Positions 1 to 9,454 of a stretch of DNA of 9,454 bases are shown piece after piece. The notes beneath the pieces are model-generated. The model saw only the letters and a list, made by a program, of their open reading frames with translations, had not been told where the DNA came from and searched no databases. Made by a program: the position numbers and the translations under genes. The DNA comes from JADFSZ01 sp022560555 [NCBI: PVC group bacterium] (GTDB lineage: Bacteria; GCA-001730085; JADFSZ01). How positions within the stretch are numbered: position 1 is the stretch's first letter; each line of letters starts with the position of its first letter. The stretch covers positions 1-9,454 of the forward strand of contig JADFSZ010000054.1 in assembly GCA_022560555.1 (NCBI GenBank). Reading direction: 5' to 3'.

Positions 1-105
1 TTTTTTCTCTTAAAATATTTTATAGGCTGAGTATTCATAGTGATCCTAGGTTTTATTGTAGCTCAGAACAAGGTTGAAAGTGCCCATGATTTTACGATTA
101 AATCC

Positions 106-147
106 ACGATTGAGCACGTACGGGCGTAAATTGTTTCACGTGAAACA
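106..147 (+). repeat. Imperfect direct repeat, copy A (includes parS1)
   Basis: This 42-bp segment (ACGATTGAGCACGTAC... ending in parS1) aligns without gaps to 487-528, with 36 of 42 positions identical by eye. The similarity extends beyond the parS core through the upstream ACGATT-AGCACGTAC block, so the two parS sites seem to have been duplicated together with flanking DNA. Confidence 0.75.
132..147. other. parS: parS site 1
   Basis: Perfect 16-bp palindrome TGTTTCACGTGAAACA, matching the canonical chromosomal parS consensus bound by ParB/Spo0J. The symmetry does not extend beyond 16 bp. It is flanked by a separated inverted repeat, GCGTAAAT at 124-131 and ATTTACGC at 172-179. Confidence 0.95.
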
Positions 148-334
148 TCCTTAGCCGGAACTACGGGGCTCATTTACGCTAGTTTTCCTCTTCACGTGTC
201 CAAAATGGAGCTGATAGGACATCACAAGGGCTTAATTTTTTTCATACGGATAAGGGCCTCCGATATATAGATCAGGGCTTACAGTTATTATAATTGTCTT
301 GCTTCATTGAAGAAGTTGTTTTACTGAAAAGATA

Positions 335-350
335 TGTTTCACGTGAAACA
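335..350. other. parS: parS site 2
   Basis: Identical 16-bp palindrome TGTTTCACGTGAAACA; symmetry extends to 18 bp (334-351). It starts 203 bp after the start of site 1. Confidence 0.95.
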
Positions 351-486
351 TTAACAGGTATCTAAGGTCATTTCGTTAGCTTCACTTTCATGCTTCCAAA
401 AGGCAACTGAAATACCAATAGTCCTCCTGAGCTTTATCGTAATCTGCATAAAATTAAAAACATTTCTGGTCTTTGTGATTTAAGCT

Positions 487-528
487 ACGATTAAGCACGT
501 ACAGATGACAATTGTTTCACGTGAAACA
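487..528 (+). repeat. Imperfect direct repeat, copy B (includes parS3)
   Basis: Partner of the copy at 106-147, offset by 381 bp. The differences fall at six positions between the ACGATT motif and the parS core. Confidence 0.75.
513..528. other. parS: parS site 3
   Basis: Identical 16-bp parS core; the perfect palindrome extends to 24 bp (509-532, CAATT...AATTG). It starts 178 bp after site 2 and 381 bp after site 1. Confidence 0.95.
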
Positions 529-673
529 ATTGATATTTCTTATATATGCACCCTTAAATATGGCCGATAGGCCGCTATGGGGTTTATTCTTCTTGTTCTA
601 ACTCAGAAATGGATATTTTTTGTTCCTTGCAGGACGGGATCTCTCTGCGTTATTTGAATTTCATTAAATATGA

Positions 674-689
674 TGTTTCACGTGAAACA
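674..689. other. parS: parS site 4
   Basis: Identical 16-bp parS core; symmetry extends to 18 bp (673-690). It starts 161 bp after site 3, the shortest interval in the array. Confidence 0.95.
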
Positions 690-892
690 TTGCTTCTCCG
701 GCGAATCATGCCCCGTTGATCGCTAAGGTTGCTGAAGGAAGCCTAATAGACAAACATGATATTTTCTTATCATCCGCCTTGAAAATGGTCGTGTTGAAAT
801 TACTAGGTTTAAGATCCCCTGTGCTTGTGAAATCAAAAGCAGGCAACGCTTTTACGTTTTACGAATCACGCTTCACTATTTACGATTTTTAA

Positions 893-908
893 TGTTTCAC
901 GTGAAACA
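893..908. other. parS: parS site 5
   Basis: Identical 16-bp parS core; symmetry extends to 20 bp (891-910). It starts 219 bp after site 4 and 380 bp after site 3. YACGATT heptamers lie close on both sides (881 and 930). Confidence 0.95.
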
Positions 909-1062
909 TTGTAATTGTGATGGCTGATTCACGATTCGGAGAAAACCATCATCGAGGCATCACCTGGACACGATTTCCAAAGTATTTCATACCGGTTGAT
1001 GGAAGCTCAATATCATCTAAGCACAAAAAGAGAGATGATTCATTGAAGATAGTGTACTCTTC

Positions 1063-1104
1063 TTCACTAAAGCAATGTTTCACGTGAAACATTGCTTTAG
1101 TGAA
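1063..1104. repeat. 42-bp perfect palindrome around parS6
   Basis: Each 21-base arm pairs exactly with the other with no central spacer. The symmetry breaks at 1062/1105. The outer arms contain TTCAC/GTGAA, repeating part of the parS half-site. The palindrome is about one-third GC and is followed by a T-run at 1110-1115, so a transcript arriving from upstream could form a hairpin plus U-tract. Whether it acts as a terminator, a cruciform or an extended ParB site cannot be decided from sequence. Confidence 0.9.
1076..1091. other. parS: parS site 6, at the centre of a long palindrome
   Basis: Identical 16-bp parS core, the copy nearest parA. It is the exact centre of a 42-bp perfect palindrome (1063-1104) and ends 43 bp before the parA -35 box. 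ParB bound here could plausibly affect parAB transcription; that is inference. An extra half-site, GTGAAACA, follows at 1100-1107. Confidence 0.95.
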
Positions 1105-1134: not shown

Positions 1135-1162
1135 TTGACACATTTTCTTAATATTGTATAAT
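1135..1162 (+). promoter_or_regulatory. Sigma70-type promoter of parAB
   Basis: Consensus -35 TTGACA (1135-1140), a 16-bp spacer and consensus -10 TATAAT (1157-1162). The expected transcription start is near 1168-1170, giving a leader of about 50 nt before parA. Both hexamers match the consensus perfectly, so basal strength should be high. The nearest parS site ends 43 bp upstream of the -35 box. Confidence 0.85.
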
Positions 1163-1184: not shown

Positions 1185-1209
1185 CCATCAAAACCCATCA
1201 AAAATGGGA
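1185..1209 (+). promoter_or_regulatory. parA leader: tandem CCATCAAAA repeat and small hairpin over the ribosome-binding site
   Basis: CCATCAAAA occurs twice in tandem with a 10-bp period (1185 and 1195). CCCAT (1194-1198) can pair with ATGGG (1204-1208) across a 5-nt loop. The only Shine-Dalgarno-like sequence, GGGA (1206-1209, 8 nt before the ATG), lies in the 3' arm of that stem. The stem is short, so a regulatory role is speculative. Confidence 0.35.
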
Positions 1210-1217
1210 CCTATCAC

Positions 1218-2108
1218 ATGGGGAAAATTGTTGCCATCGCTAATCAAAAGGGTGGCGTCGGAAAAACGACAACAGCGGTCAATTTAGCTGCTTGCCTATC
1301 GTTTGCCGGCAAAAAAGTTCTTCTTATCGACTTAGATCCACAAAAAAATGCGTGTAGCGGTCTTGGAGTTTACGAGGAAACTTATCAAATAAGCGCTGTT
1401 GACGTTCTGCTCAACGAAACTCCCGTAACGGATGCGATTCTAAAGACCTCTTTTAATAATCTTGACCTTCTTCCGTCTTCTTCAGATCTTGTCGGCGCTG
1501 AAGTGATACTTACCGACCTCCCCATGCGGGAGCAGAGGCTCAAAGCGGCCCTCAATAAAACTGTTCGTGATATGTATGACTTTATTTTCATTGACACCCC
1601 TCCGTCTTTAGGACTCATTACCATCAATGCTTTTGGGGCTTGCCACAGTGTCTTAGTTCCTATTCAATGCGAGTATTACGCGCTTGAGGGTGTTAGTAGC
1701 CTCATGATGACCATTGAAACCGTTCGTGAGAGATTAAATTCCCGTATCGAGCTTGAAGGTATTGTTATGACCATGGCGGATAAAAGGACGAATTTGAATC
1801 AACAGGTCATTGCTGAAGTAAGAGAGCATTTCTCAGAAAAAGTGTATCGAACTCTCATATATCGTAATATTACGCTGGCTGAAGCTCCAAGTTTTGGCAA
1901 ACCGGCCATATTTTATAATATAAGATCAGTAGGATCAAACTGTTATATTAGTCTTACAAAAGAATTTCTTGAAAAAAATTCCCAGGCGCCAAAGAAGGCT
2001 CTATCAAGGGGGCAGATGATTATTGATATTCAGGGTTCTGAGAGATATATTCAAGAATCGCATAGGGATTTCGTTGATTCTTCAATATTCGAAAAATCAA
2101 AAAAATAA
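1218..2108 (+). CDS. parA: Chromosome-partitioning ATPase ParA (Soj family) with an extended C-terminal tail
   Basis: ParA/Soj is a deviant-Walker ATPase that dimerises on ATP, binds nucleoid DNA non-specifically, and is stimulated by ParB to move origins apart. The 296-residue product has the deviant Walker A motif KGGVGKT at residues 11-17, the Walker A' motif DLDPQ at 38-42 and the Walker B region FIDTPPS around 124-130. The late GKPAIFYNIRS segment is also typical of the family. The start at 1218 gives a normal Soj N-terminus (MGKIVAIANQKGG) and has a weak GGGA ribosome-binding site 8 nt upstream. The usual Soj fold ends near residue 253. Here about 43 extra residues follow, containing KKALSRG (259-265), which resembles the ParA-contacting motif at the N-terminus of ParB. 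parB follows closely in the same operon, and the parS array lies upstream. The family call is secure; any role for the tail is unknown. Confidence 0.97.
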   Translation: MGKIVAIANQKGGVGKTTTAVNLAACLSFAGKKVLLIDLDPQKNACSGLGVYEETYQISAVDVLLNETPVTDAILKTSFNNLDLLPSSSDLVGAEVILTDLPMREQRLKAALNKTVRDMYDFIFIDTPPSLGLITINAFGACHSVLVPIQCEYYALEGVSSLMMTIETVRERLNSRIELEGIVMTMADKRTNLNQQVIAEVREHFSEKVYRTLIYRNITLAEAPSFGKPAIFYNIRSVGSNCYISLTKEFLEKNSQAPKKALSRGQMIIDIQGSERYIQESHRDFVDSSIFEKSKK

Positions 2109-2113
2109 CAATT

Positions 2114-2128
2114 GTGGAGGAAAATATG
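2114..2128 (+). promoter_or_regulatory. Ribosome-binding site deciding the parB start
   Basis: A strong GGAGG (2116-2120) lies 5 nt before the ATG at 2126. An in-frame GTG at 2114 overlaps this Shine-Dalgarno sequence and has none of its own, so the ATG at 2126 is the better start. Confidence 0.85.
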
Positions 2129-3010
2129 TTTAATATTGACTTAAATAATGATAAAGTGGTTCACAAAAAGGCTTTAGGTCGTGGTTTAGATGTATTAATC
2201 CCAGAAAAAGAGAAAAGACGTGGATTTGTTAATATCGAAATCGAGAAAATTATACCCAATGCCCTGCAGCCACGGAAAAATTTTGCCCCGGATGAACTTT
2301 CTAACCTTGCAGCCTCCATCAAAGAAAAGGGTGTTCTCCAACCGATCATTGTTCGCTCAAAGGGGAGCAAATATGAGTTGGTAGTCGGAGAAAGGCGCTA
2401 CCGGGCGGTCAAATCACTTGGATTATCTGTTATTCCTGCCATCATCAAGGAACTTTCGGATCGTGACATGCTCGAAATGGCCTTAATAGAGAATATCCAA
2501 AGAGAGGACCTTGATGCAATCGAAAAAGCTGAAGGATTTCTTAAGCTGATGAATGATTTCGGACTGACACACGATGAACTGGCACGTCATGTCGGACAGA
2601 GCCGAACGAGTGTTACCAACACATTAAGGCTGTTAAAGCTCCCCCATCGGATCAAAAAAGGGATTTCATATAAGAAAATCAATATGAGCCAGGCGCGGAC
2701 ATTGCTTGGACTGAAATCGGAGCATGAACAGATTCAAATGTACGAGCGTATTCTCGAAAACCCGCTCAACGTCAGGGATTTAGAAGAAATGGTGTCTGAT
2801 ATCCAAATCACATTAGATCCAAAATCCGTAACACGAAAAAAGAGGAAAAAAGACCCCCAATTAGGACTTCTCGAAGATGAATTGAGAGAGATTTGGGGAA
2901 CAAAGATCGTTGTGCGCGGCAATAACAAAAAAGGGCGCATTGAAATTCACTACTACTCTCTGGATGATCTGGACCGGATCCTGAAGCAATTAAAACGCCT
3001 CTCCCCATGA
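2126..3010 (+). CDS. parB: Chromosome-partitioning protein ParB (Spo0J family)
   Basis: ParB binds parS, then closes as a CTP-dependent clamp that slides along DNA, stimulates ParA and recruits SMC in many bacteria. The 294-residue product has all expected parts. The N-terminal ParA-interaction motif KKALGRGLDVLIP is at residues 14-26. The ParB/sulfiredoxin nucleotide-binding domain spans roughly 35-128, with GERRYRA (88-94) and ENIQRE (122-127), the motifs tied to CTP binding. A helix-turn-helix lies around 147-173. A basic linker (RKKRKK) leads to the C-terminal dimerisation domain (about 245-294). The start at 2126 rests on a GGAGG ribosome-binding site. The gene begins 17 bp after the parA stop and is surely co-transcribed with it. 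The six perfect parS sites upstream are its predicted targets. No truncation or missing motif is visible. Confidence 0.97.
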   Translation: MFNIDLNNDKVVHKKALGRGLDVLIPEKEKRRGFVNIEIEKIIPNALQPRKNFAPDELSNLAASIKEKGVLQPIIVRSKGSKYELVVGERRYRAVKSLGLSVIPAIIKELSDRDMLEMALIENIQREDLDAIEKAEGFLKLMNDFGLTHDELARHVGQSRTSVTNTLRLLKLPHRIKKGISYKKINMSQARTLLGLKSEHEQIQMYERILENPLNVRDLEEMVSDIQITLDPKSVTRKKRKKDPQLGLLEDELREIWGTKIVVRGNNKKGRIEIHYYSLDDLDRILKQLKRLSP

Positions 3011-3223
3011 AGTAATGAAACTTGCTATGAAACCCCTTCCTTTATTATGGCGGCTCCGGAAGCCCCTGAAGAAGAGATTTTTGTAAAATTCTAAAATTCA
3101 AAAAGTTGGCATAAAAAAAGACAGGACGCTGACTTGACGTCTCTCTCCTATCTTATATATAATTAGATGTTTGGACCCATCAAGCATGTTCTGGCATGCC
3201 AACGACAGTAAAGGGGTAATTCC
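3011..3223 (+). other. Intergenic region between parB and the wbpD-pil cluster
   Basis: This 213-bp gap holds no credible gene. It contains a good promoter (3134-3163) and a ribosome-binding site AAGGGG (3211-3216) 7 nt before the next ATG. A small inverted repeat, GCATG (3184-3188) and CATGC (3195-3199) with a 6-nt loop, lies in the predicted leader. No convincing intrinsic terminator for parAB is seen: GGCT-CCGGA-AGCC just after parB is too short a stem and lacks an adjacent T-run. Confidence 0.7.
3134..3163 (+). promoter_or_regulatory. Sigma70-type promoter of the wbpD-pilT-pilB-pilC cluster
   Basis: -35 TTGACG (3134-3139, five of six consensus bases), an 18-bp spacer and -10 TATAAT (3158-3163). 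The predicted transcription start is near 3170, giving a leader of about 55 nt. It is the only clear promoter before the seven-gene run that follows, so it probably drives the pilus genes too. Confidence 0.7.
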
Positions 3224-3808
3224 ATGAAGGGAAACTTGTATTTTGTTCATCCGACCAGCGTTGTTGACCAAGGAGCTGTCATTGGACGGGACACAAAAAT
3301 TTGGCATTTCTCACACATATCAGCACAAGCGATGATCGGACAAGATTGCAAAATTGGACAAAACGTCTTTATCTCTGATCATGTCAAAATCGGGAACAAT
3401 GTGAAAATTCAAAACAATGTTTCCATCTATACCGGAGTTGTTTTAGAAGATGATGTTTTTTGCGGCCCGTCTATGGTGTTTACGAATATTGTTAACCCGC
3501 GATCAAAATTTCCTAGGAATGATCCTAAATATTACCAAAAGACTCTCGTTAAACAAGGAGCGTCTATCGGAGCGAATGCTACCATTCTTTGCGGAATCAC
3601 TATCGGCAAACATAGTTTTATCGGAGCGGCCTCCGTTGTGACAAAAAGCGTTCCGGATTATGGATTGGTGTACGGGAATCCCGCCATGCTTAAGGGGTGG
3701 GTTTGTGTCTGCGGGAAAAAACTTGAAGGAAAAAATCAAGAATGGATGTGCCCTGATTGTCAAAAAGCTTATGATATCAACGGTCAAAAGGTGACCGCGA
3801 AAATATAA
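3224..3808 (+). CDS. wbpD: WbpD/WlbB-like N-acetyltransferase of the hexapeptide (left-handed beta-helix) family
   Basis: The 194-residue protein matches the length and pattern of the WbpD/WlbB family. These enzymes transfer acetyl from acetyl-CoA to the 3-amino group of UDP-2-acetamido-3-amino-2,3-dideoxy-glucuronate, a precursor of O-antigen sugars. Visible support includes hexapeptide repeats ([LIV]GxxxxI) through residues 19-75 and 114-140, the stretch NNVKIQNNVSIY (58-69), the motif VFTNIVNPRS (85-94), and IGANATILCG (115-124) followed by the YGNPA turn (150-154). The C-terminus has CxC (161, 163) and CxxC (176, 179), which could bind a metal; that is inference. The ATG has an AAGGGG ribosome-binding site. 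No other sugar-nucleotide gene is nearby, so the precise substrate is uncertain and a generic sugar acetyltransferase role remains possible. It is probably the first gene of the cluster with pilT 32 bp downstream, and could modify a surface glycan. Confidence 0.82.
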   Translation: MKGNLYFVHPTSVVDQGAVIGRDTKIWHFSHISAQAMIGQDCKIGQNVFISDHVKIGNNVKIQNNVSIYTGVVLEDDVFCGPSMVFTNIVNPRSKFPRNDPKYYQKTLVKQGASIGANATILCGITIGKHSFIGAASVVTKSVPDYGLVYGNPAMLKGWVCVCGKKLEGKNQEWMCPDCQKAYDINGQKVTAKI

Positions 3809-3840
3809 ATGTTCAGCATAACCTAAAGAATGGAGACAAA

Positions 3841-4908
3841 ATGAATATTGCGGAACTGCTGCTTATGGCAAAGGAAAACAATGCTTCTGACCTTCATATT
3901 TCTGTGGGATTACCGCCGATTTTGAGAATTCACGGAATTATGGAGAGGACAGGGTCGTCACCGATGGAAAAAGAAGAAACACACGACCTCTTGTATGACA
4001 TTCTTTCGGATGCCCAAAAGAGTACGCTCGAAGAAAAGATGGATATTGACTTTTCTCTTGAGGTCGAGAATGTCGGACGATTTCGCGTCAATATTTATCG
4101 GGATCGACGGGGGATTGCCGCCGCCTTCAGACTCATTCCTGAAGAAATCCGGTCTGTTCAAGAGCTAGGATTACCTGACGCTCTGACGCACCTGGCCCGG
4201 AGAAGAAAAGGGCTGATTCTTGTGACGGGTCCGACAGGAAGTGGAAAGTCTACGACGCTGGCAACAGTTATTGATCAGATCAATGAAGAAAGAAAAGAGC
4301 ATATCATTACTATTGAAGACCCTATTGAATTTATACATCAGCATAAAAACTGTATGGTCAATCAAAGAGAAATCGGTTTTCACGCGGAGTCTTTTAACCG
4401 GGCCCTTCGGGCGGCTCTCAGAGAAGACCCCGATGTGATTCTGGTCGGGGAAATGCGGGATCTAGAGACGATCGGCATGGCGATCACAGCCGCCGAGACC
4501 GGTCACTTGGTTTTAGCGACACTGCACACAAACAGCTGTGCAGAAACGATTGATCGTATTGTCGATGTGTTTCCGTCTCATCAGCAAAAACAGATTCGAA
4601 CGCAATTGGCCAATAGTATTCAAGGGGTACTCACCCAAACACTCATCCCGACGATTGACGGACGGGGGCGGGTTGTGGCGTGTGAAGTGATGATTGGAAC
4701 TACAGCGATCCGAAGTTTGATTCGTGAAGCCAAGCCCCATCAGATCGCGTCCGTTATCCAAACGAGCACAAAAGAAGGGATGCAGAGTATGGACCAGTGT
4801 CTTAAAAATCTTGTGATGGAGAGAAAAATTGCTTTGTCAGAAGCCATATCGCGCGCGGATCATGTGGATGAGTTTCGAAAGCTTGAAGCAACGTATGGTA
4901 CAAAATAA
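3841..4908 (+). CDS. pilT: Type IV pilus retraction ATPase PilT
   Basis: PilT is the hexameric cytoplasmic ATPase that depolymerises pilin and powers pilus retraction, twitching and DNA uptake. The 355-residue length is normal. Features in order: N-terminal PAS-like domain (about 1-110, with ASDLHISVG near the start), Walker A GPTGSGKST (130-138), Asp box ITIEDPIE (156-163), Walker B region DPDVILVGEMRD (196-207, catalytic Glu in GEMRD), and His box TGHLVLATLHTN (220-231). The signature AIRSLIRE (289-296) distinguishes PilT from PilB and is needed for retraction in characterised homologues. There is no tetracysteine zinc site, also as expected for PilT. A GGAG ribosome-binding site lies 5 nt before the ATG. 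A histidine kinase gene begins within 6 bp of the stop, which is unusual company for pilT. Confidence 0.96.
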   Translation: MNIAELLLMAKENNASDLHISVGLPPILRIHGIMERTGSSPMEKEETHDLLYDILSDAQKSTLEEKMDIDFSLEVENVGRFRVNIYRDRRGIAAAFRLIPEEIRSVQELGLPDALTHLARRRKGLILVTGPTGSGKSTTLATVIDQINEERKEHIITIEDPIEFIHQHKNCMVNQREIGFHAESFNRALRAALREDPDVILVGEMRDLETIGMAITAAETGHLVLATLHTNSCAETIDRIVDVFPSHQQKQIRTQLANSIQGVLTQTLIPTIDGRGRVVACEVMIGTTAIRSLIREAKPHQIASVIQTSTKEGMQSMDQCLKNLVMERKIALSEAISRADHVDEFRKLEATYGTK

Positions 4909-4914
4909 AGAATT

Positions 4915-6657
4915 TTGAGGGGCAAATTTTTCGCCAGGAATTTCAAAAAGAATATTAAAGTGACAAAAAAAAGTAAATCAAAACAAGAGGATATTAAGCA
5001 AGACAGCCAATCGTTTGAGCAGAAAGTCAAATGGCTGGAGACGCTCTATCATGTGACACATGAGGTTGTGGGATCTCTCTCCCTGGAAAAATGTTTAAAA
5101 ACAATTGTCCACGAAACAAAAAAAATCCTCAAAATTAAACGAGTGTCGCTTCTCCTGATCGATCAGGAGAAAAAACATTTAAGAATAAAAGTCGCGGCAG
5201 GTATCGATCCCTCTGTTATCCGCAAAACAATTGTCAAAATGGGCGAAGGAATATCCGGATGGGTGGCTTTTCATAAAAAACCCATTTTTGTCGATGATAT
5301 TACCCAAGAAAACCATTTTTCTTCCTCAGGGTTTTCAGGCTACGATACAAAATCTTTTATAAGCGTTCCTCTTATGTTTCAGGAAGAATGTATCGGGGTT
5401 CTGAACGTCAACAACAAAATATCGGGGGAGCCCTTCTATGAAGATGATTTCCTTTTGTTAAAAGCCTTCGCTAATGAAGCCTCCATGGCCATCAAAAATG
5501 CGCGATTATACACGGAACTAAAAGAAGCTAACCAGCGGCTTAAGGAGATGGACGCGTTAAAATCCAATTTTGTCGCGTGCGTGTCCCATGAGCTGAGAAC
5601 ACCCCTCGCGAGCATGCGCTATCTTATCGCCGCTGTTCTTGACGATAAAAAATCCGCCATGCCCGAGGAGCAAAGAGAGTATTGCATGTTGGTCGAAGAA
5701 AACCTGGAGCGCCTGACACGGCTTGTCAACGATATCCTGGATATGTCTAAGATTGAAGCCAAGAAACTCACGCTTGATCGAAGACTTTTATTGATGAGCG
5801 ACATTGTTAAAAATATCAAGATATCGTTTGAAGGTTTAGCCGAGAAAAAGGGGATTACATTAAAGACTCATATGCAAAAACGGAACATATATGCTTATGC
5901 GGACCAGGACAAAATTTCGCAAATATTATATAACCTTTTAAATAATGCCCTCAAATTTACACCGAACAAAGGACGTGTGGATATTAAGCTTCGCTATGAA
6001 ACCCGTGTTAACCAAACGATGATTCGCGTGTCCGTATCGGATACGGGCCCGGGTATTCCCGATGATGAAAAAAAACGTGTTTTTGACCAATTCTATCAAT
6101 ACCAGAAAGGCACATCCGGGACCTCCGGCGGGACAGGATTGGGTTTGACCATCACAAAAGAATTGATTGAGCTCCACGAAGGGATATTGGAAGTCAAAGA
6201 TAATCTTTTCGGCCCCGGCGCGGTTTTTGAATTTGTCATTCCCGCATGTGACTCGACAAAATACCTTAAAGAGTTCCTCCCTCATGAAGTTCGTCACGCT
6301 CCGCCGGCCGGATTTGCCATATCCATGATTATTCTTCGGTTTCAATTTCCCAAAAACGCCGGCTTGAAAGTTAAAGATAAAATCTTACAGGATACTCAAA
6401 ATATCCTGGGGAAATATGCCGAGGCACGGGACATGGTTTTTGAGGAAGACAATAAACTTTTGGGAATCTATTACGGCATTAATCCGGAAAAGGCAAAAAA
6501 GAACAAGATCAAAATAGAAAACAATGTTCAAGCGCTTTTGATGGATTGCCAAAAGAACGGTTCTATCAAATTTCAAATAAAAAGATATTCCTACACCAAA
6601 AATATATCAGCCTTCAAAACCTTTATCACTCAAGTAAACGAAGAGTGGCAATCTTGA
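4915..6657 (+). CDS. Soluble GAF-domain sensor histidine kinase with a C-terminal degenerate GGDEF-like domain
   Basis: The 580-residue product has no signal peptide or membrane segment, so it should sense a cytoplasmic cue. Domains: a basic N-terminus; a GAF domain (about 55-197); a short coiled coil (198-215); HisKA with the phospho-accepting His225 in SHELRTP; and a HATPase domain with N box NLLNNALKF (340-348), DTGPG (376-380), F-box-like VFDQFYQ and GGTGLGL (405-411). All catalytic boxes look intact. A further 120 or so residues (about 460-580) follow. Their pattern, FAISMIILRFQFPKN, then a helix, then a short EEDNK turn and a GIYYGI strand, recalls a GGDEF domain lacking the GGDEF signature; this is inference. 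Start: TTG at 4915 has no clear Shine-Dalgarno sequence. GTG at 4960 (MTKKSKSK...) is an equally plausible start, so the first 15 residues are uncertain. The next gene encodes its likely partner receiver. Confidence 0.88.
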   Translation: MRGKFFARNFKKNIKVTKKSKSKQEDIKQDSQSFEQKVKWLETLYHVTHEVVGSLSLEKCLKTIVHETKKILKIKRVSLLLIDQEKKHLRIKVAAGIDPSVIRKTIVKMGEGISGWVAFHKKPIFVDDITQENHFSSSGFSGYDTKSFISVPLMFQEECIGVLNVNNKISGEPFYEDDFLLLKAFANEASMAIKNARLYTELKEANQRLKEMDALKSNFVACVSHELRTPLASMRYLIAAVLDDKKSAMPEEQREYCMLVEENLERLTRLVNDILDMSKIEAKKLTLDRRLLLMSDIVKNIKISFEGLAEKKGITLKTHMQKRNIYAYADQDKISQILYNLLNNALKFTPNKGRVDIKLRYETRVNQTMIRVSVSDTGPGIPDDEKKRVFDQFYQYQKGTSGTSGGTGLGLTITKELIELHEGILEVKDNLFGPGAVFEFVIPACDSTKYLKEFLPHEVRHAPPAGFAISMIILRFQFPKNAGLKVKDKILQDTQNILGKYAEARDMVFEEDNKLLGIYYGINPEKAKKNKIKIENNVQALLMDCQKNGSIKFQIKRYSYTKNISAFKTFITQVNEEWQS

Positions 6658-6675
6658 GGCAAAAGGGAAAATCCC

Positions 6676-7050
6676 ATGCCGAAAAACATATTACTCATTG
6701 AAGATGAAGAGAGTTTCGCGAAAAGCCTAACGATTTTTTTAGAGGGAAAAGGCTATTCTATCAGCTGGATCTCAGACGGGGAAAACGGTCTTAAACACGC
6801 GCAATCGGATTCTCCTGATTTGATTATCCTGGACGTGATGCTTCCCAAGATGGATGGATTTAAGATTTGCCGGTATCTCAAATTTGACGCGCGTTACAAA
6901 AAGATACCTATCTTGATGCTGACGGCCCGCGCGGAAAAATCGGATTTTGCTCTCGGAAAAGATATGGGTGCGGACGCGTATATGATCAAAACGGCAAAAC
7001 CTTCTTTGGTTTTGGAAAAAGTCCGGGAGTTGCTCGGAGAAAATAGCTGA
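6676..7050 (+). CDS. Single-domain response regulator (CheY-like receiver)
   Basis: The 124-residue protein is a receiver domain with no output domain. It has the acidic pocket E9/D10/E11, the phospho-accepting Asp53 in LIILDVMLPKMDG, the switch Thr83 and the conserved Lys105. The usual Lys-Pro pair after beta-5 is Lys-Thr here (YMIKTAKP). It lies 18 bp after the GAF kinase gene and one base before pilB, so it is the natural phosphotransfer partner of the kinase. With no DNA-binding domain, it most likely acts by protein contact, perhaps on PilB, PilT or the PilZ protein; this is inference. An AAGGGA ribosome-binding site precedes the ATG. GGGA (6665-6668) and TCCC (6672-6675) could form a tiny hairpin over it. 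Confidence 0.93.
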   Translation: MPKNILLIEDEESFAKSLTIFLEGKGYSISWISDGENGLKHAQSDSPDLIILDVMLPKMDGFKICRYLKFDARYKKIPILMLTARAEKSDFALGKDMGADAYMIKTAKPSLVLEKVRELLGENS

Positions 7051-7051
7051 T

Positions 7052-8752
7052 ATGAAGACAGCCCGCCATAAAGCTCTGCTCAATTATCTTAAAGATCATA
7101 AAATCCTGCCGGAAGAAAAAATTCAGGAATTGGTCAAAGCGACCGAAATTGAACAAACATCCATGGAAGTCTTGCTGGTCAAAAAAGGGTATTTAACGGA
7201 AGAGACTCTATATTCCATCTTGGCGGATATCAATAAAGTCCCTTATGTTGATTTGGCAAACTATCGCATTGACCGCGATATCCTAGAACTTATTCCCTAT
7301 GAATTAGCCCGCAAACACCATGTCATTCCTTTGTTTAAGATTCAAAACGTTTTAACGGTGGCGATGACGGATCCGGCGGACATTGTTATCATTGATATTT
7401 TGAGAGAACGTACAAGTTGTGATATTGATCCGTGTGTCAGTTCCCCCAAACTAATCTCGAAGGCCATCCAGGAGTACTACCAAAGCCGACAAACGATCAA
7501 TCACCTCATAGGAACGTTAGATAAGGAAATGACCGGTGTGGATCAAATTGTTAAAACGGATGAGACCGAAACCGTTCAACTTGCAGATGAAGCCCCCATT
7601 GTCAAACTTGTGAATATGACCGTGACCCAAGCTGTTCAAGAGGGAGCCAGTGATATCCATTTTGAACCCGATAAAGAATTTTTACGGGTTAGATTCCGTA
7701 TCGGAGGCATTATGCGTGAAGCGGCGACTCCTCCCAAACATCTGCAGTCGCCTATTCTTACGCGTCTTAAAGTTATGTCAGATATGGATATTTCCGAAAC
7801 ACGTGTGCCTCAGGACGGACGCTTTCATATCGAGGTTGATCATCGCCAGATTGATATTCGTGTGTCAAGCGTTCCGACCACGTATGGTGAAAACATAGTT
7901 CTCCGTTTATTAGATGTGAGCGGGGTGATGATAGGATTGGAAGGGTTGGGGTTCCGCAAAAATATTTTGAAAAGATTCGAAAAAGCGATCCGTATGCCTC
8001 ATGGGATTATCCTTGTTACGGGTCCGACAGGATGCGGGAAAACAACAACCCTGTATGCCGCACTACAAACTATCAATTCCAAGGATAAAAATATTGTAAC
8101 CATTGAAGATCCCGTGGAGTACCGTCTCGAGCTTATTCGGCAGATCCAGGTTCATCCTAAAGCCGGGTTGACATTTGCCACAGGATTGCGCTCCATCATG
8201 CGTCAGGACCCGGATATTATTATGGTGGGAGAAATTCGGGACGTGGAAACAGCTCGCCTGGCCATTCAAGCGGCGCTGACGGGGCATTTGGTTTTTTCTA
8301 CCCTCCACACGAATGATGCCCCAAGCGCGGTGATCCGTCTGAAAGACATGGGCATTGAGCCCTTTCTCATCGCGTCCACGGTTCGCAGCATTCTTGGCCA
8401 GCGTCTTGTGAGAAAATTGTGCGAACATTGCAAGGAAGCGTATACCCCCAATCCGGAACTCGTGAACTCTCTGGGGATCACTCCGGGGGACGATCTCGTT
8501 TTTTATAGAGAAAAGGGGTGTGAGTTCTGTCATCAATCCGGATATCAGGGGCGCATCGGATTGTTTGAATTGATGAGTGTCTCCCAGGAAATACAAGATC
8601 TCATTGTTCGAGATACTTCGGCTCAAGACATTAAAAAATGGGCGCAATCGCGCGCCTACGAGGATATCAAACAAGACGGGATACAAAAAGTTTGCCAAGG
8701 GCTCACATCTTTGTCTGAAATCTACCGGGTCACGGAAGAAGAGGCGGTATAA
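7052..8752 (+). CDS. pilB: Type IV pilus extension ATPase PilB (GspE/PulE family)
   Basis: PilB is the hexameric ATPase that drives pilin polymerisation at the inner membrane, working with PilC. The 566-residue length is typical. It has an N-terminal MshEN/GspE-N region (about 1-145, with LLVKKGYLTEETL), a class that binds c-di-GMP in some homologues, and a linker around 150-180. The N2 domain begins near APIVKLVN. Walker A is GPTGCGKTT (324-332), the Asp box IVTIEDPVEY (348-357), the Walker B region DPDIIMVGEIRD (386-397) and the His box TGHLVFSTLHTN (410-421). A tetracysteine zinc site (C457, C460, C490, C493) separates it from PilT. GspE of a type II secretion system is the alternative; adjacency to pilT favours PilB. 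The ATG lies one base after the receiver stop, implying translational coupling. The PilZ gene follows after 15 bp. Confidence 0.94.
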   Translation: MKTARHKALLNYLKDHKILPEEKIQELVKATEIEQTSMEVLLVKKGYLTEETLYSILADINKVPYVDLANYRIDRDILELIPYELARKHHVIPLFKIQNVLTVAMTDPADIVIIDILRERTSCDIDPCVSSPKLISKAIQEYYQSRQTINHLIGTLDKEMTGVDQIVKTDETETVQLADEAPIVKLVNMTVTQAVQEGASDIHFEPDKEFLRVRFRIGGIMREAATPPKHLQSPILTRLKVMSDMDISETRVPQDGRFHIEVDHRQIDIRVSSVPTTYGENIVLRLLDVSGVMIGLEGLGFRKNILKRFEKAIRMPHGIILVTGPTGCGKTTTLYAALQTINSKDKNIVTIEDPVEYRLELIRQIQVHPKAGLTFATGLRSIMRQDPDIIMVGEIRDVETARLAIQAALTGHLVFSTLHTNDAPSAVIRLKDMGIEPFLIASTVRSILGQRLVRKLCEHCKEAYTPNPELVNSLGITPGDDLVFYREKGCEFCHQSGYQGRIGLFELMSVSQEIQDLIVRDTSAQDIKKWAQSRAYEDIKQDGIQKVCQGLTSLSEIYRVTEEEAV

Positions 8753-8767
8753 AAAGAGTGAAATTTT

Positions 8768-9205
8768 ATGGTTAAAAATCACGCGAAAAATCGTAACGAA
8801 ACACGGATGCATCCGCGGGTTGATGTGCGGATACCGGTGATCTTCCAGATTGACGAGTCATCAAAATCGAGCATTCACATTGTTGACGAAAGTTTTATTC
8901 ATGGGGAACTTATGGACATCAGTGTCAATGGGGCCGGCTTTTTTATTCCGATTTTTATCCCGAAAGGCATCCGGATTGTGCTGCAAATTCAAGCGGTGCC
9001 TTTTTATAGCGATCGGGAGGGGCCTAACGAATATATCCGGACGACGGCGAAAGTCATATATTCCCGGCTGGATGTTCAAGACACCCAGAGTCCGAGAACA
9101 GAAGAACGATTCATAAGACGGTATCGGACGGGTGTGGAATATCTAAAAATTGATTCTTCGGATCAAAATGCCATTCAGATCTATACAGAAAAAAACAAAA
9201 GTTAA
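8768..9205 (+). CDS. PilZ-domain protein, probable c-di-GMP receptor
   Basis: PilZ domains bind cyclic di-GMP through RxxxR and [D/N]xSxxG motifs. This 145-residue protein shows both: RMHPR (residues 13-17) and DISVNG (50-55). A beta-barrel-like remainder ends with GVEYLKIDSSDQNAIQIY, a typical PilZ C-terminus. An insertion of about 12 residues (KSSIHIVDESFI) precedes the second motif. There is no other domain and no membrane segment. It sits between pilB (15 bp upstream) and pilC (9 bp downstream), so it probably acts on pilus assembly. Because the c-di-GMP motifs are intact, it should be a genuine binder, unlike P. aeruginosa PilZ, which lacks them. The start at 8768 is a guess among nearby options but gives the normal domain length; only a weak GAG-type ribosome-binding site precedes it. 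Confidence 0.87.
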   Translation: MVKNHAKNRNETRMHPRVDVRIPVIFQIDESSKSSIHIVDESFIHGELMDISVNGAGFFIPIFIPKGIRIVLQIQAVPFYSDREGPNEYIRTTAKVIYSRLDVQDTQSPRTEERFIRRYRTGVEYLKIDSSDQNAIQIYTEKNKS

Positions 9206-9214
9206 CCGGATATT

Positions 9215-9454
9215 ATGCCTGTTTTTGAGTATACAGCACGTGATTCAGACGGCAAGAAAATTGTTGGGATAATTGAAGCGGTCGACCGCCAGCGTGTACT
9301 GTCCTATGTGGATGGATTAGGCTTGCTTCCCATTGATGTGCGCAGCAAAAAAACCCCATTTTGGAAGAAATGGTTAAAGGTTTCGTTCGGACGAGTTAAA
9401 AAGCCCCACCTGGTATTTTTCAGCCGGCAATTGTCGACACTTATTAAAGCCGGG
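9215..9454 (+). CDS. pilC: Type IV pilus inner-membrane platform protein PilC (GspF family), 5' part only
   Basis: An open frame starts at ATG 9215, 9 bp after the PilZ stop, and runs to the window end without a stop (80 codons visible of a family length near 400). The N-terminus MPVFEYTARDSDGKKIVG...EAVDRQRV...GLLPIDV is the classic PilC/GspF opening. It is followed by a basic linker and then LVFFSRQLSTLIKAG, the start of the first T2SS-F domain. PilC is the polytopic membrane protein on which PilB and PilT act to add or remove pilins. Its place after pilB and pilT supports PilC rather than GspF. The truncation is due only to the window edge. Confidence 0.92.
   Translation, partial: MPVFEYTARDSDGKKIVGIIEAVDRQRVLSYVDGLGLLPIDVRSKKTPFWKKWLKVSFGRVKKPHLVFFSRQLSTLIKAG

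Follow-up and report, generated by a model that had tools for sequence, protein, structure and literature searches.

The parS sites of Streptomyces and Listeria chromosomes are spread over a long origin region. Streptomyces and Listeria chromosomes were described with as many as 20-23 parS sites in the vicinity of the origin (PMC7333895). On the chromosome of M. xanthus, 22 parS sites fall within about 3 kb, approximately 4 kb upstream of parA (PMC3899335). A four-site cluster, parS1-4, lies near oriC in P. aeruginosa, where the promoters next to parS3 and parS4 are reported to be repressed (PMC5521831, PMC4368675, PMC10419367). Ten putative sites were reported genome-wide for P. aeruginosa and one of the four closest to oriC was sufficient (PMC4368675). 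Finally, direct-repeat arrays upstream of parAB are known from the description of the secondary genome elements of D. radiodurans (PMC7671480).

The window analysed here (9,454 bp) is the complete contig C22 of the source assembly (G000), which has 1,658,262 bases in 222 contigs and is 91.54% complete. Six perfect copies of TGTTTCACGTGAAACA were recovered directly before parAB at all the positions given by the original prediction (Table 1), with intervals of 203, 178, 161, 219 and 183 bp between starts and a span of 960 bp. The window begins 131 bp before site 1 and six sites are thus a minimum. With up to three mismatches allowed, the window contained the same six sites alone, at a chance expectation of 0.04 (200 dinucleotide shuffles). 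The scan of the whole assembly, which had been proposed as a check, returned the six exact sites and no site with a single mismatch; one site had two mismatches and ten had three, while the control at the three-mismatch tolerance produced seven matches. Equally dense clusters elsewhere in the genome had been named as evidence against the array; the scan found no other exact or one-mismatch sites. No other contig of the assembly overlapped C22 and the remaining four matches were just 14-17 bases long. No ORF of at least 60 aa was present in positions 1-1217 with open ends included, the longest being 58 aa, and the GC content of this region was 0.37 compared to 0.43 for the rest of the window. 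No second shared spacer motif was detected, as the commonest 6- to 9-mers were not above first-order Markov shuffles, and positions 1-1217 had no exact DnaA box and a single one-mismatch match at 443. These results support a real parS array adjoining parAB with its cores probably under selection. Overall, the locus is very probably an ordinary chromosomal ParABS of the Soj/Spo0J type, comprising its centromere and operon in a compact form, and not a system of the plasmid type.

Table 1. Features of the parS-parAB locus, with positions counted from the first base of the window.
Feature	Position	Strand	Evidence
Region preceding site 1, a diverged copy of spacer 2-3	1..131	+	Alignment
parS site 1, perfect 16-mer	132..147	.	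Exact match
parS site 2, palindrome of 18 bp	335..350	.	Exact match
Spacer 2-3, homologous to 1-131 (62% over 137 columns), possibly to spacer 1-2	351..512	+	Alignment
parS site 3, palindrome reaching 24 bp (509-532)	513..528	.	Exact match
parS site 4, palindrome of 18 bp	674..689	.	Exact match
parS site 5, palindrome of 20 bp	893..908	.	Exact match
parS site 6 (1076-1091) within a perfect 42-bp palindrome	1063..1104	.	Exact match, palindrome search, folding
Promoter match TTGACA-16-TATAAT before parA, 43 bp past site 6	1135..1162	+	Consensus match only
parA, 296 aa, P-loop ATPase, Walker motif near residue 10	1218..2108	+	ORF, Pfam
parB, domains ParB_N, HTH_ParB and ParB_C; GERRYRA and ENIQRED present	2114..3010	+	ORF, Pfam, PDB comparison, alignment

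The array resembles that of M. xanthus in being a dense parS cluster near a parAB that is chromosomal there and likely so here, with six sites in 960 bp (PMC3899335). However, the M. xanthus sites are varied with the consensus TGTTCCACGTGGAACG and lie about 4 kb upstream of parA, whereas those of the window are identical and end 126 bp before parA (PMC3899335). P. aeruginosa also has a site cluster, but with ten putative sites genome-wide (PMC4368675). The Streptomyces and Listeria chromosomes share the large number of sites (PMC7333895), and their spread pattern was represented in our survey by G245 with nine exact sites across 134 kb. The direct-repeat arrays of D. radiodurans are likewise upstream of parAB but belong to secondary genome elements (PMC7671480). 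The compact chromosomal parS array is therefore a known kind, of which the present locus is a smaller and cleaner new case in an obscure phylum.

The survey covered 386 genomes over many phyla, the source included, with the exact 16-mer only, so that variant sites were missed. Exact parS was found in 145 of the 386 genomes. Ten genomes had at least three exact sites: G173 (11), G245 (9), G000 (6), G010, G012, G163 and G302 (4 each), and G033, G093 and G123 (3 each). At least five exact sites within 1.2 kb were found in G000 and G173 only. Compact parS arrays are thus rare (2/386 genomes, exact sites), yet known, M. xanthus providing a chromosomal precedent (PMC3899335). The G173 array (C54:29356-30482) is similar, with 12 sites, 11 of them exact, packed into 1.13 kb that lie about 280 bp upstream of the ParA match, but its gaps range from 47 to 201 bp and it belongs to another phylum. 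Two pairs of its spacers were copies of each other, with 78/82 and 29/33 positions identical (z 21.9 and 9.9). Eight of the 11 gaps in this array (L064 7357-8483) were near multiples of 49 bp (98, 49, 98, 47, 97, 97, 141 and 149 bp); of the remaining gaps, 201 bp is near four times 49 while 58 and 76 bp do not fit. Exact parS was present in 16 of the 58 genomes of the G173 phylum, and the other 57 genomes had 0-2 sites each.

The single other genome of the source phylum that was compared, G001, belongs to another family and is very distant, with a ParB 43% identical to that of the window. No parS was found in G001 with up to one mismatch; one site had two mismatches and 23 had three, against 14 control matches, and the G001 centromere was not located by this search. 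In G001 only 50 bp separate the end of an mnmG frame from the ParA match, so that an array would not fit upstream of parA; the frames flanking parAB there are presumably mnmG and ATP synthase genes. The arrangement of parAB beside mnmG was rejected for the source assembly, in which mnmG sits inside a different contig (C166). The array is not conserved across the distance to G001. Relatives without the array had been named as contrary evidence, and G001 is such a relative, but its weight is limited by its being the sole same-phylum comparison and a very distant one. Both compact arrays, in G000 and G173, look like local events because they were unseen in the other sampled genomes of each phylum.

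Comparison of the spacers gave an indication of how the array was formed. Positions 1-131 and spacer 2-3 were identical in 85 of 137 aligned columns (62%), the alignment reached the edge of the next site, and its score of 175, the best of 42 spacer comparisons, was not approached by 3,000 dinucleotide shuffles, none of which scored above 148. In spacer 2-3 there are 30 bases between site 2 and the start of the match, while in positions 1-131 the match begins at base 5, and global alignment of the two leaves 21 bases before base 1. From these offsets, a seventh parS is predicted outside the contig, some 20-30 bp before base 1. Spacers 1-2 and 2-3 aligned nearly end to end, with similar z values in the forward (3.6) and reverse (3.5) orientations, and their kinship is suggestive only. 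A common ancestry of all spacers was rejected, being clear for one pair only, with a mean z of 0.77 for the 21 forward pairs and 0.36 for the 21 reverse pairs. The earlier description of the intervening DNA as diverged holds in that the spacers largely differ, but it overlooks the resemblance still visible between positions 1-131 and spacer 2-3. Since positions 1-131 are a diverged copy of spacer 2-3, duplication of parS-plus-spacer units appears to account for at least part of the growth of the array, while selection maintained the cores. The predicted selection on the cores was in line with the data, all six 16-mers being intact although the clearest homologous spacer pair shares fewer than two thirds of its aligned positions. 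A further reading, tentative and held with rather low confidence, is that of a satellite-like centromere in which tandem parS-plus-spacer units of approximately 190 bp turn over by unequal duplication and selection acts only on the 16-bp cores; G173 would then be an independent and younger case.

The original prediction had also raised the possibility of selection on the spacing of the sites. The intervals (mean 189 bp, sd 23, CV 0.107) were indeed even, and spacing this even arose in 0.035% of 200,000 random placements between fixed ends (P = 3.5e-4; post hoc test). Even spacing might itself be selected, for example for bridging by ParB clamps or to avoid mutual blocking of parS-bound dimers, and parS pairs 184, 187, 218, 225 and 225 bp apart at up to 3 kb from parAB in five genomes of other phyla are in agreement, these loci having been chosen for close pairs and some of their sites carrying one mismatch. 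However, duplication of a unit of roughly 190 bp could yield equal evenness, the G173 gaps range from 47 to 201 bp, and exact pairs were 37-91 bp apart in G007, G053, G083, G130, G204, G267, G296, G315 and G335 and more than 1.5 kb apart in other genomes. Helical phasing of the sites (R = 0.12, 0.16 and 0.74 at periods of 10.4, 10.5 and 10.6 bp) was not counted as evidence, as a single one of three periods tried was high. The evenness is therefore real, but helical phasing was not demonstrated and unit duplication is the simpler cause; selection on spacing is considered unlikely.

The proteins of the operon were consistent with a chromosomal system. ParA matched PF13614 and contains KGGVGKTT, and the gap between the parA and parB ORFs is 5 bp. 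ParB (298 aa) has the N-terminal, HTH and C-terminal dimerisation domains PF02195, PF17762 and PF23552, and its GERRYRA and ENIQRED are presumably the CTP-site motifs. The best PDB matches of ParB were two Spo0J entries, 1vz0 and 6sdk, which we take to be T. thermophilus and B. subtilis Spo0J, respectively, so that chromosomal ParB structures were the closest. At the positions that separate ParB from Noc, the window ParB has R173, T179, K184 and S201 (own alignment, numbering of PMC7383237). A Noc/NBS system was rejected, since Q173 and R201 are required and the window ParB has R and S. R173, which contacts guanine 1 of parS (PMC7383237), was present in all 12 aligned ParBs. Against the chromosomal reading, the window ParB has H162, Q171 and S201 where conserved Q, K and G were reported (PMC7383237). 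The same paper states that G201 is absolutely conserved among extant ParBs and that parS-specific library variants tolerate S at 201 (PMC7383237). Among the 12 aligned ParBs, position 201 was G in eight, S in three (window, G010 and G012) and A in one (G001), and each analysed stretch with an S201 ParB has exact parS; S201 ParBs beside canonical parS (3/12) thus bear on the published claim of absolute conservation. The loci with S or A at this position were window 2114-3010, L070, L073 and L051, those with S lying beside canonical parS. Four of the 12 stretches were without exact parS, namely G006 (two one-mismatch sites), L049, L050 and G001. In the G001 ParB, positions 171 and 204 are L and K, respectively, and its genome was without parS at up to one mismatch, so that this ParB may use a different site.

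The likeness to a plasmid-style centromere drawn in the original prediction was not borne out. Plasmids typically carry dense arrays directly before parAB, and the locus could belong to a plasmid or chromid whose centromere has the canonical parS sequence. This would fit the secondary replicons of D. radiodurans with their direct-repeat array upstream of parAB (PMC7671480), and related ParBs were found in 4,037 plasmid records, with best rows at about 41% identity. However, one full-length ParB was found in the assembly, leaving no second full-length ParB to serve the chromosome. A second, partial ParB_N-like frame (L052 5707-6003, G000:C80) runs off its contig end; the frames beside it are presumably histidine biosynthesis genes and a TPR protein. 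Downstream of parAB are a hexapeptide protein, two T2SSE ATPases (presumably PilT- and PilB-like), a GAF histidine kinase, a response regulator and a PilZ protein, and the other genes of C22 look like chromosomal pilus and signalling genes. No replication or transfer genes were found among the eight window proteins taken into the Pfam scan, the cut last gene being left out. A search of 72,556 plasmid records with positions 1-1217 gave no DNA match at E 0.01. Type Ia plasmid ParA is defined by a long N-terminal HTH region, whereas the Walker motif of the window ParA starts near residue 10 and the protein matched ATPase-type families only. The composition also resembles the rest of the assembly: the tetranucleotide correlation of positions 1218-9454 with a pool of nine other contigs was 0.976, compared to 0.957-0.981 for those contigs against the other eight (nine of 12 contigs plus C80 were used, two all-N and two short ones being left out), in a test that is partly circular since bins are normally built from composition and binning may add foreign contigs. 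Together with the chromosomal-like ParB and the M. xanthus precedent (PMC3899335), the combined evidence favours the chromosome, with the binning bias remaining, and a plasmid or chromid is judged very improbable. The array of this probable chromosomal ParABS is presumably close to the origin.

The promoter match before parA agrees with the sigma-70 consensus at 12 of 12 bases, while over the entire region there were three promoter-like matches against 4.5 in shuffles and thus no excess. The perfect palindrome at site 6 (42 bp) compares to 16-24 bp at the other sites. Positions 1063..1104 could form a 19-pair hairpin or cruciform, and positions 1050-1120 as single-stranded DNA fold at -19.1 kcal/mol (z = -7.0 against shuffles). 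The palindrome is terminator-like on the + strand, with a T run beginning five bases past the stem. It could possibly serve as a stronger ParB site, as insulation from upstream transcription, or both. A small inverted repeat, CCCAT-CAAAA-ATGGG, was observed in the parA leader just 5' of the start codon (window 1194-1208). That the sites act mainly as operators for parAB expression, with the centromere role elsewhere, is highly improbable: every site precedes the promoter match and the palindromic site 6 is the nearest, but the assembly has no other exact or one-mismatch parS as an alternative centromere and six operators across 1 kb should exceed the need for repression.

For the chromosomal ParABS reading, a mechanism can be proposed by analogy with other systems. 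ParB dimers would bind each parS, as expected from known ParB biology, and the bound dimers would close as CTP-dependent clamps, as in other ParBs. The clamps would then spread by sliding over the spacers and the adjoining DNA, bridging between them would give a single partition complex, and ParA would pull the sister complexes apart. The partition complex would presumably also load SMC. Six loading sites in 960 bp would together act as a strong platform for loading, confined to one place. The assembly contains an SMC-like frame of 1,200 aa with paired end domains; since the SMC family also matched 14 of 14 control genomes, the argument depends on the length and on the paired end domains. ParB should repress or tune parAB because the last site lies so close before the promoter match, and such autoregulation would probably proceed by ParB spreading from site 6. 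In an in vitro assay, no condensation was obtained with one, two or four parS sites and between five and seven were needed, which the authors ascribed to the minimum force of the assay (PMC8299390). Reports cited in the same paper hold that a single site suffices for segregation (PMC8299390). Set beside the assay, the six sites here are a hint, not proof.

Exact parS pairs were also observed in contigs classed as viral. A total of 38 IMG/VR loci (L091-L128) had exact pairs 161-222 bp apart, start to start, which was the range searched, and 38/38 were confirmed. A tblastn search of the window ParA and ParB against the DNA of these loci, some of them part-contigs, produced one 28-aa ParA match (E 6e-4) in L099. 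PHROGs comparison of ten proteins from five viral contigs gave a portal protein in L104 and L126, terminase in L116 and L126, primase and DNA polymerase in L094, a methyltransferase in L119 and one family of unknown function, while two proteins were without match. Some of the parS-bearing viral contigs may be phages using the host ParAB. Denser arrays were present in L116 (6137-6460), with eight sites of which six were exact, mostly at 38-bp distances, and in L110 (7005-7207), with five sites of which three were exact, at distances of 35-62 bp.

If the tentative satellite-like reading is true, the array would run past the contig end, its copy number would vary among strains and it would be tied to its own ParAB supply via the promoter-proximal palindrome. 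A review asked why the number of parS sites varies when one often suffices and what drives their clustering in the course of evolution (PMC7333895). Two compact arrays in different phyla, both with copied spacers and both unseen in the other sampled genomes of their phylum, suggest that local duplication is one source of clustering and that arrays turn over. Finally, the present array, natural and confined to a single locus, would be a convenient test case, its number of sites being about that needed in the in vitro condensation assay.
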